Under the pieces are notes generated by a model, which saw only the letters and a program-made list of their open reading frames with translations, searched no databases and was not told the origin of the DNA. A stretch of DNA of 20,191 bases from a virus: positions 1 to 20,191 of the IMG/VR virus record IMGVR_UViG_3300004461_000602. One strand, 5' to 3'. Each line of letters opens with the position of its first letter. Position 1 is the first letter of the stretch. Both the position numbers and the translations under genes were made by a program. Positions 4,829-20,191 of this stretch are shown one piece after another.

Positions 4829-5077
4829 ATGAAAACACCACAGGAATTTAGAAAACTAATTGAATCTATAGAAGTCCAGGAAGCAGCAGACGGTCCTAAA
4901 GAGCAACTCATGGACATCATGGAACAACTACGCCAACTATCCGCCGAGGCTGCTGGTATTATGGCAGAGCACTTCCCCCAAGCTCATCAGCAAGGCGATG
5001 CATATGACACTTCATTTGAAAGCATTTTAAATTCTATAGCAATTTTGAAGATGCTGCTAATGAAGCGGCATGGATGA
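4829..5077 (+). CDS. Small helical protein of unknown function
   Basis: This 82-residue protein begins 8 bases after the acidic protein, with the weak ribosome-binding site GGAACTAAG. Residues 1-50 are heptad-like helix (EFRKLIESI, MDIMEQLRQLSAEAAGIM), followed by an HFPQAHQQGD loop and a final helix ending in basic MKRHG. The next small ORF starts inside its last codons in another frame (8-base overlap), so the two may be translationally coupled. No known domain is recognised. Confidence 0.6.
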   Translation: MKTPQEFRKLIESIEVQEAADGPKEQLMDIMEQLRQLSAEAAGIMAEHFPQAHQQGDAYDTSFESILNSIAILKMLLMKRHG

Positions 5078-5153
5078 TGAACAGGCCCTTCAGAAAGTTG
5101 TCAGTAAATATGATGTTCCTATTGAAGAACTAGAAGATTACATGGGTAGATAA
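5070..5153 (+). CDS. Very small ORF (27 residues), possible end of the operon
   Basis: ATG at 5070 overlaps the end of the previous gene and encodes MDDEQALQKVVSKYDVPIEE, then LEDYMGR. The composition is that of a compact amphipathic helix-turn-helix rather than random sequence, and the overlap is the kind seen throughout this genome. It could be a separate micro-protein or, if a frameshift occurs near 5070, a C-terminal extension of the 82-residue protein. Evidence is limited to spacing and composition. Confidence 0.4.
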   Translation: MDDEQALQKVVSKYDVPIEELEDYMGR

Positions 5154-5154
5154 G

Positions 5155-5204
5155 AAACATATTGCATTAAAAGACTCCTGCTAGTATAATATAAACATAT
5201 TGCA
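5155..5204 (+). repeat. 12-base direct repeats flanking the mazG promoter
   Basis: AAACATATTGCA occurs exactly at 5155-5166 and again at 5193-5204. The first copy covers most of the -35 (TTGCAT), and the second covers the expected start site and reaches into the ribosome-binding site. Their 38-base spacing would place two protein-binding sites on either side of the promoter. Confidence 0.65.
5162..5190 (+). promoter_or_regulatory. Strong sigma70-like promoter for mazG
   Basis: TTGCAT (5162-5167) and a perfect TATAAT (5185-5190) are 17 bases apart. The expected start site is about 5197, inside the loop of the hairpin annotated at 5171-5215. A transcript from here would keep the AGGAG ribosome-binding site of mazG but lose the arm that pairs with it. 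Confidence 0.75.
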
Positions 5205-5215
5205 GGAGTTTTTTT
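5171..5215 (+). terminator. Hairpin plus U-tract that also hides the mazG ribosome-binding site
   Basis: ACTCCTGC (5174-5181) pairs with GCAGGAGT (5202-5209), and flanking AAG/TTT can lengthen the stem. It is followed by a run of T to 5215, directly before the mazG ATG at 5216. For transcripts from upstream it can act as a terminator or, if read through, sequester AGGAG (5204-5208). The 20-base loop contains the promoter -10. T4 genes such as e and soc are controlled by a similar pairing of long early transcripts and short internal transcripts. Confidence 0.8.
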
Positions 5216-5626
5216 ATGACACAAATTGATCTAAACAAATACAAAGAGTTTGTAGACGCTGTTACCAGCGATGAAAGCAAAGATAACAGTGCATATCAAA
5301 TGCGCCACAATCTATTGCAAAATTGTAGAACAGCAAACATTCCCCAACTAATGACAGCCGCAATGGGATTGTGTGCAGAGAGTGGCGAGTTTACCGAGAT
5401 TGTTAAGAAAATGTTGTTCCAAGGCAAGCCATTGGATGCTGATAACATCTTCCACATGAAGAGAGAATTAGGCGATGTACTCTGGTACTGGATGCAGGGC
5501 TGTTTGGCTATGGATGTAGACCCTAATGAAATTATCCAAATGAATATTGATAAACTTAAAGCACGTTATCCAGGTGGTGAGTTTGATGCTCACTACAGTG
5601 AAAACAGACAAGAAGGCGATGTTTAA
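5216..5626 (+). CDS. mazG: MazG-like nucleoside triphosphate pyrophosphohydrolase
   Basis: This 136-residue all-alpha NTP-PPase hydrolyses NTPs or dNTPs to the monophosphate and pyrophosphate; in marine phages it has been linked to nucleotide pools and to (p)ppGpp, with dNTP-type substrates also proposed. The metal-binding ExxE...ExxD motif is intact: E55 and E58 in LCAESGEF, E84 and D87 in MKRELGDVLWYW. The C-terminal KARYPGGEFDAHYSENR is typical of the phage family. The start is fixed by AGGAG (5204-5208) at 7-base spacing. Control is unusual: the ribosome-binding site lies in a hairpin stem whose loop holds a sigma70-like promoter. The next gene begins at the base after its stop codon. The substrate cannot be told from sequence. 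Confidence 0.9.
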   Translation: MTQIDLNKYKEFVDAVTSDESKDNSAYQMRHNLLQNCRTANIPQLMTAAMGLCAESGEFTEIVKKMLFQGKPLDADNIFHMKRELGDVLWYWMQGCLAMDVDPNEIIQMNIDKLKARYPGGEFDAHYSENRQEGDV

Positions 5627-5872
5627 ATGCATCCATTATCTCCTAATTTGAATGATATGAGCGATACTGATTTAGACGAAAGAATTAAATCACTAAACAC
5701 TAAACTTGTACAAGCATATCAGAGTTCTCCAGGAGTAGTTAATCAGATTCGTATGATGTTAGATGACTTTACTGAAGAACGGATGCGCCGAGACAAAGAA
5801 CAACTTAACAAACTAATGAAACAATCAACAGACAAGGGCGATAATTGGGACGATATTATCGATATTGGATAA
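5627..5872 (+). CDS. Small conserved-type phage protein, unknown function
   Basis: This 81-residue protein starts immediately after the mazG stop codon (TAA then ATG), indicating coupled translation. It opens MHPLSPNLNDMSDTDLDERI and is mainly helical and charged, with a probable coiled coil at 15-65 (RIKSLNTKLVQAY, EERMRRDKEQLNKLMKQ) and an acidic end (DNWDDIIDIG). I have an impression of similar short proteins starting MHPLSP in T4-like cyanophages, but assign no function. No metal site or membrane segment is present. Confidence 0.65.
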   Translation: MHPLSPNLNDMSDTDLDERIKSLNTKLVQAYQSSPGVVNQIRMMLDDFTEERMRRDKEQLNKLMKQSTDKGDNWDDIIDIG

Positions 5873-8016: not shown

Positions 8017-8562
8017 ATGACAACACATGGTATGATAGATTTAGAAACCCTGGGTACTGCACAGAACACTGTGGTGCTTAGTCTTGGTGCAGTTAAGTTC
8101 GATCCTTTCAACAGCGAGGATCCAACCCATGCACTTTATATTAAACCTGATGTAGATGAGCAAACTGCTACACTCAACAGAACAGTTGATGACGACACAC
8201 TTAGGTGGTGGAACAGTCAACCAGAAAGCATCAGAGACGAAGCACTGTCTGAAGATGACAGGATTAGTTGCCCAGAGTTTATTAAGCAAATTAATCGTTG
8301 GTGCGTCGGTATTGATGTTTTATGGTGCCAGGGTCCGTTGTTTGACTATGCTATTCTTGAAGACTTTTACAGGAATATGCAGCAACCGTGTCCCTGGCAT
8401 TACTGGCAGATTAGAGACTCAAGAACATTGTTTGCTTTAATGCCTAAAGATCCTAGAAAAGATATCCAACAAGAGTTACATAATGCACTAGCAGATGCTT
8501 ACTTCCAAGCACAGTGTGTTCAGAAAACCTACAAACACTTTAACATTACAACAGGGCGATAG
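8017..8562 (+). CDS. DEDDh 3'-5' exonuclease
   Basis: This 181-residue protein shows the exonuclease motifs in order: D8 and E10 in GMIDLETLGT (motif I), D110 in LFDYAILEDF (motif II) and H155...D160 in ELHNALADAY (motif III, DEDDh type). It resembles the Rv2179c-like exoribonuclease and T4 DexA families, which trim RNA or single-stranded DNA from the 3' end with two metal ions. The gene starts at a likely leaderless promoter and is followed by a small ORF and the clamp-loader gene, so a DNA replication or nucleic-acid turnover role is plausible. RNA versus DNA preference cannot be decided. The WQIRDSRTLFAL segment (130-141) also fits the family. Confidence 0.85.
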   Translation: MTTHGMIDLETLGTAQNTVVLSLGAVKFDPFNSEDPTHALYIKPDVDEQTATLNRTVDDDTLRWWNSQPESIRDEALSEDDRISCPEFIKQINRWCVGIDVLWCQGPLFDYAILEDFYRNMQQPCPWHYWQIRDSRTLFALMPKDPRKDIQQELHNALADAYFQAQCVQKTYKHFNITTGR

Positions 8563-19740: not shown

Positions 19741-20115
19741 ATGTCCACGAAACTTGGTGAAGATACAGAACTTACAATGCCCATTAAGACTATAGTAATG
19801 GTTGTTGCCTTCCTAATTTCGTCTTCATGGTATGTGTTTAACACACAGTCAAAGATTTCAAGTTTAGAAAGTGACATTGCTGTTATTCAGGAAAGCGTAA
19901 AACTAAACAATGAGTTTAGAACCGTTGCGCCTAATGCACCACAGTTAATTGAGTCTCATACGAAAGTATACGAGATACAATCATCCATTAATGCAATAAG
20001 GGCAACTTTAGAAATGTATGCCAAACAACCTAGTAGAGGACACACAGATATTGAAGTATTGAAGTCAACTGTTTGTTTCCTGCAAAAACAAATTGATGAT
20101 ATTAAGGGTGAGTAA
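19741..20115 (+). CDS. One-TM coiled-coil protein, unknown
   Basis: The 124-residue protein has a short polar N-terminus, one membrane segment (about 15-34, IKTIVMVVAFLISSSWYVF) and a long coiled coil (about 37-122, SKISSLESDIAVIQESV, IEVLKSTVCFLQKQIDDI). AAAAGGA gives a good ribosome-binding site. The shape, an N-anchored protein with a coiled coil, resembles i-spanins and some antiholins, but an i-spanin is already present at 15335. Possible roles are membrane attachment, superinfection control or a second spanin. An ATG at 20118 begins the next gene, of which only two codons remain before adapter sequence. Confidence 0.65.
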   Translation: MSTKLGEDTELTMPIKTIVMVVAFLISSSWYVFNTQSKISSLESDIAVIQESVKLNNEFRTVAPNAPQLIESHTKVYEIQSSINAIRATLEMYAKQPSRGHTDIEVLKSTVCFLQKQIDDIKGE

Positions 20116-20123
20116 TTATGGAA

Positions 20124-20191
20124 AGATCGGAAGAGCGTCGTGTAGGGAAAGAGTGTAGATCTCGGTGGTCGCCGTATCATTAAAAAAAAAA
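20124..20191. other. Illumina adapter read-through plus poly-A (assembly artefact)
   Basis: AGATCGGAAGAGCGTCGTG begins at 20124 and the match to the reverse complement of the standard Illumina TruSeq universal adapter continues to 20181; ten A residues follow to the end. The true sequence stops at about 20123. Any gene or similarity based on this tail, including a minus-strand ORF through it, is artificial. Confidence 0.97.

Follow-up and report, generated by a model that had tools for sequence, protein, structure and literature searches.

The leader of the mazG gene in this virus raises the question of which transcripts can be translated when a promoter and a hairpin covering the ribosome-binding site (RBS) share the same bases. 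The window, meaning the whole stretch of DNA that was analyzed, is a virus record of 20,191 bases with adapter sequence at its end. Positions 20124-20191 consist of Illumina adapter sequence (AGATCGGAAGAGCGTCGTGTAGGGAAAGAGTG...) and poly-A, and a minus-strand open reading frame at 19956-20180 that reads MIRRPPRSTLFPYTTLFRS was discarded as an artefact, namely, translated Illumina adapter. The controlled gene, mazG (5216..5626, on the plus strand, like all parts of the element described below), encodes a MazG pyrophosphohydrolase of 136 amino acids (Pfam PF03819, E 3.3e-8; PHROG 229, E 6.9e-57). On its 5' side lie a gene with a Putative Ig domain (Ig-like) and small genes, a block that is probably structural, and on its 3' side lie replication and metabolism genes. 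The order mazG, chaperonin, clamp loader, PhoH is common to the window and PA5oct-like jumbo phages, which also gave the closest match to the clamp loader found among cultured phages (54%). For the MazG protein alone, cyanophage MazG was closest (66%), and megablast of the window against cultured phages returned no match. Compared with L018, a locus otherwise nearly identical to it, the gene immediately 5' of mazG (4829-5152) is missing short stretches at three places (36, 16, and 19 nt); their absence breaks the frame in the window and reflects either real deletions or an assembly fault. The intact L018 frame ends at the TAA stop codon at 5150..5152, 9 nt 5' of the -35-like hexamer of the element. 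Elsewhere in the window, 401-421 form a strong intrinsic terminator of the classical kind (GGGCGGGATTTATTCCCGCCC, then a T-rich run).

The sequence-only reading had described a single hairpin whose loop holds the -10 box of a promoter and whose 3' arm holds the RBS of mazG. When the sequence was re-read, all of the coordinates proved correct, and sequence and fold agree on this arrangement. ACTCCTGC (5174-5181) is fully complementary to GCAGGAGT (5202-5209). From this 8-base core the stem runs on outward, further than had been proposed, through G5173-U5210 and A5169-A5172/U5211-U5214 to give 13 continuous pairs (A5169-C5181 with G5202-U5214), one of which is G-U. The 5' arm, AAAAGACTCCTGC (5169..5181), is identified by sequence, fold, and covariation as an anti-Shine-Dalgarno arm that lies within the promoter spacer, 5' of the predicted start. 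Its partner in the fold, the 3' arm GCAGGAGTTTTTT (5202..5214), contains AGGAG (5204..5208), the Shine-Dalgarno sequence (SD) of mazG according to sequence and computed accessibility. Seven T's after the stem (5209..5215) form a terminator-like U-tract, optional in the family, that doubles as the spacer between the SD and the ATG at 5216.

The loop carries a perfect TATAAT -10 box (5185..5190), which is kept in relatives, spaced 17 nt from TTGCAT (5162..5167). This hexamer is only weakly -35-like (three of the six bases of TTGACA, where most relatives have TTGACA or TTGACT), and the mazG site was therefore not listed by a generic promoter scan. Promoter geometry predicts a transcription start at about 5197, 7 nt past the -10 box and between the two arms. 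The 12-base direct repeat that had also been pointed out, AAACATATTGCA, is exact at both places (5155..5166 and 5193..5204). It is absent from L002, the nearest divergent relative, so it is probably incidental and was rejected as a functional part.

The leader hairpin is far beyond chance. The fold of 5169-5218 has a free energy of -18.4 kcal/mol, compared with -5.3 ± 2.2 for shuffled sequences (z -6.1), and none of 200 shuffles was as stable. RNA from 5195 on is without a stable fold (-3.3, z +1.7), and the computed probability that the SD is unpaired was 0.0002 in read-through RNA versus 0.73 in the promoter's own RNA. By computed fold and accessibility, the hairpin is thus predicted to sequester the RBS in transcripts that enter from upstream. 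A search of Rfam returned no family above the gathering score and only two sub-threshold chance matches.

We consider it probable that this leader is a self-liberating RBS, by which a gene is translated only when its own embedded promoter fires and is insulated from neighboring transcription. A host-sigma-type promoter would be overlaid on an RNA hairpin, with the spacer between -35 and -10 encoding the anti-Shine-Dalgarno arm. RNA entering from upstream would contain both arms and would fold, hiding the RBS and preventing translation; where a U-tract is present, as in the window, much of this read-through RNA would probably also terminate. RNA from the embedded promoter would start in the loop without the 5' arm, and its RBS would be open for translation. 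According to the computed folds, it is most likely that only RNA started at the element of about 50 bases can be translated. This explanation brings together the computed anatomy, the covariation of the arms, recurrence before unrelated genes, and predicted SD accessibility; promoter activity, the start site, silencing in vivo, partial termination, and purpose are what we infer. The sequence-only reading is partly supported.

Relatives of mazG were gathered by two protein searches, with protein similarity as the sole criterion, yielding 160 loci. With the window added, 159 had sufficient upstream sequence, and 84 of these were nonredundant. A promoter of the TTGAC/TATAAT type was present in 25 of the 84 upstream regions. 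In these relatives, host-type TTGAC, 17 nt, and a TATAAT-like box follow one another, and the spacer encodes an anti-Shine-Dalgarno arm that mostly begins at, or overlaps, the -35 element (TTGACTCCT..., TTGACATCCT..., TTGACCTCCT...). When each sequence was scored with its own arm, the stem score was 22.48, compared with 15.32 ± 0.62 in 300 permutations between sequences (maximum, 16.90). This permutation retains the SD, so the stem score measures pairing beyond the SD. The arm letters vary widely (CTCCTAG, CTCCTTATATAA, TCCTATCCAACA, CTCCCGGT, ACCTCCTAGT), each with its own matching 3' arm. A weak -35 keeps the window and L002 from being counted among the 25, yet both have the stem and TATAAT. 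Compensatory stem changes together with a conserved loop promoter, which had been suggested as a check among relatives, are therefore found, in the form of own-arm pairing and a kept TATAAT. The other 59 of the 84 regions failed the promoter screen, so a mazG gene does not in itself require the device. Most of them have no recognizable promoter, and many begin right where the preceding gene ends or inside its last part. For the mazG genes of P-SSM2 and PA5oct, there is no room for the element, the upstream gene being close or overlapping.

A search of IMG/VR for the complementary-arm pattern found at least 120 stretches, nearly all of those listed being at start codons, whereas the control, its 5' arm scrambled, yielded 28 across all of IMG/VR, mostly away from start codons. 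Many of the 120 or more loci are closely related, so independent cases are far fewer; pooling of all sets and removal of near-duplicates left 64 strong elements, some of which are still related. Among the matches listed, the genes that follow the pattern belong to several mazG groups or are homologs of window 5627-5872 (next after mazG) or of the exonuclease at window 8017-8562; others encode a membrane protein of 54 to 56 amino acids or a basic protein of 97 to 100 amino acids, and further genes occur as well. The basic proteins, which start MG..YGS (L153-L268, several dozen loci), are preceded by the device, whose promoter hardly varies among them, and only partial relatives of them occur, in a few cultured phages. 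The layout precedes genes other than mazG mainly in uncultivated aquatic phages. The notion of a mazG curiosity was not borne out, since the layout is reused before many genes. Different letters with preserved pairing, in diverse relatives and before many other genes, indicate a real, reused device.

The device is not a general property of promoters in these phages, most of whose other strong promoters are without it. Among records of the window lineage, the mean stem was 13.09 versus 11.93 ± 0.19, a modest excess that comes from a few strong cases. Only three matches to the strict pattern were found in bacterial genomes (L381, a Christensenella MAG; L380; and L379), all at start codons and one of them preceding an Rrf2-like regulator gene; three are too few to interpret. 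In whole genomes, a loose pattern (TCCT...TANNNT...AGGA) was uninformative, its count being equal to that of the reversed control. A different hairpin before start codons, ACTCCAGAT..ATCTGGAGTACTCT, hides the RBS in L065 (about 5410-5455) and L066 (about 1210-1260); with its tight AT-rich loop and no -35, it is possibly another kind of RBS control.

Stems of this sort could in principle arise by chance, because an AT-rich spacer that contains TCCT is complementary to any SD, and weak stems of 5 to 6 pairs are indeed common among all promoters (permuted mean, 12 to 15). The window fold (z -6.1) and the SD-retaining permutations, which never reach the observed scores, speak against this, and we give chance almost no credence; for the strong cases, it is refuted by the permutation and location controls. 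An inverted repeat over a promoter could also be a DNA operator, a repressor dyad, dyads around the -10 box being a usual feature of such operators. In the present elements, however, the arm letters change from gene to gene and from phage to phage, complementarity alone is kept, and the SD sits in the downstream arm. The internal mismatches bear on the same point. Under neutral scoring, the pooled strong elements had 39 G-U and 9 A-C mismatches, and a set not picked by pattern had a weaker excess, 31 G-U to 17 A-C, where the ratio expected by chance is 0.96. This bias moderately favors selection on the transcribed strand. With variable arms and G-U bias both counting against it, we regard a DNA operator as very improbable.

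A further possibility is that the element mainly serves to terminate the upstream operon, as a compact intrinsic terminator joined to a promoter, with the SD placed in the 3' arm for economy and occlusion as a by-product. The window copy itself fits this well, since a strong stem of 13 pairs and seven T's stand directly past the upstream stop codon, and AGGAGTTTTT is present in many relatives. This terminator-like combination is not conserved in the family, however. The U-tract after the stem is absent in L318, L319, L326, L340, and L343, as well as at the strongest sites of Sinorhizobium phage Phosso, while the SD stays paired at all of these and the promoter is kept in the five loci. In addition, the 3' arm lies on or at the SD not only in the pooled strong cases, which were selected so, but also in the unselected mazG set. 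Loss of the U-tract with retention of an SD-covering stem indicates that RBS occlusion, not termination, is the shared core, and we consider the terminator explanation unlikely. The proposal that upstream transcripts either terminate or are silent would hold for the window copy, but across the family termination appears to be an addition, confined to copies with a U-tract, that can be dispensed with. A U-tract-free pattern gave equal numbers of distinct matches with the real and the scrambled arm (10 versus 10; strong stems, 6 versus 2) and, because of these equal counts, was not used as evidence of enrichment.

Among cultured phages, Phosso carries more of the layout across its genome than expected by chance. 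Its 85 promoter-gene pairs had a mean stem of 15.94, compared with 13.44 ± 0.30 when permuted (z about 8), and the stem score reached 16 in 32 pairs versus 17 expected. The excess peaks in the spacer segment, segments 5' of the -35 being lower (12.85 and 12.04), and the best stems have 16 to 17 pairs. Phosso was not a random pick, having been flagged by the loose pattern, but the permutation test does not depend on how often that pattern occurs. All eight sites that were checked (7860, 9460, 10249, 12112, 14680, 143319, 224226, and 278085) are immediately 5' of independently annotated starts and mostly just past the preceding gene, and the element lies between runs of small genes on one strand. 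Pseudomonas phage PA5oct has a single case and no genome-wide stem excess. That copy (NC_071039.1, 216211-216265) is perfect, with ten pairs (TAACTCCGTT/AACGGAGTTA), TTGACT, and TATAAT, and lies exactly 5' of the start of PQE65_gp174, between an adhesin gene and a DNA polymerase gene. The first 50 kb of T4 contained no pair under the promoter definition used, and no control was obtained from it.

It had also been proposed that timing is reversed at mazG, the gene being silent in late read-through RNA and active only in early host-sigma RNA. This is a special case of the self-liberating RBS, and the probabilities of the two overlap. Gene order is consistent with it, as the Ig-domain gene upstream of mazG is probably structural and replication and metabolism genes follow, and the PA5oct copy likewise lies between the adhesin and the DNA polymerase region. 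Moreover, the T4 late-promoter sequence TATAAATA was below expectation in genomes of the window lineage, with no excess, so no T4-type late box explains the element; a T4-type late promoter as the loop promoter was ruled out on this ground. TATAAACA at 5190-5197 is one mismatch from TATAAATA and is not conserved in mazG relatives. In Phosso, by contrast, the element stands between co-oriented runs of small genes, where insulation within one class of genes is equally likely, which makes insulation the more general reading. Early/late reversal is thus plausible in the window and PA5oct, and simple insulation explains Phosso as well; we place the reversed timing of mazG at somewhat below an even chance.

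We see an even chance that anti-Shine-Dalgarno arms encoded in promoters serve several phage lineages, jumbo phages included, as a modular insulator of general use. If so, each cassette would carry a unit of about 55 bp comprising promoter, hairpin, and RBS, its translation would depend on its own promoter regardless of upstream transcription, and genes could be shuffled without rewiring of expression. Gene-dense phage genomes are short of room for terminators, and how neighbors are expressed separately is an open practical question. The layout would answer it in a form that can be read from sequence, picking out genes whose translation depends solely on their own promoter, and, as a natural insulator of small size, it would be of interest to builders of gene circuits. 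Its occurrence in the cultured phages Phosso (Sinorhizobium) and PA5oct (Pseudomonas) makes these ideas directly testable.

The closest known parallel is gene e of T4, in which long transcripts hide the SD and internal late promoters give open RNA; soc, 49, and I-TevI have inhibitory leader hairpins like that of e (PMC3014915). The analogy to e and soc that had been drawn from the sequence is apt, the hairpin logic being the same (PMC3014915). As in e, upstream RNA would hide the SD in a helix, and RNA from a promoter that overlaps the 5' strand would lack that strand and be translated. Unlike e, with its TATAAATA late promoters and gp55, the present elements have promoters of the host-sigma type (TTGAC, 17, TATAAT), their arm lies in the -35/-10 spacer, and the layout recurs before many genes and repeatedly within a genome. 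In IS10 and IS50, read-through RNA folds over the transposase RBS, and RNA from the internal host-sigma promoter does not. This protection of the transposase from external promoters was reportedly described by Davis, Simons and Kleckner in 1985 and by Schulz and Reznikoff in 1991. An embedded host-sigma promoter and an RBS-occluding read-through hairpin are shared with these insertion sequences, here on the evidence of sequence and computed folding. The insertion-sequence device, however, serves a transposase in one family of elements, whereas the phage version precedes unrelated genes, each with an arm of its own sequence; the guarded genes encode MazG, exonuclease, small membrane proteins, and other phage proteins, and no transposase. 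Intrinsic terminators whose 3' arm overlaps a downstream RBS likewise have a GC-containing stem and a U-tract directly past the upstream gene; the present elements differ in having a promoter in the loop and in tolerating loss of the U-tract within the family. The open-access literature that was searched held no description of a host-sigma, spacer-encoded version. The proposed device would bring the T4 late-gene hairpins and the protection of insertion-sequence transposases under a common scheme, itself working in like manner but with host-sigma promoters, spacer-encoded arms, and repeated use per genome.
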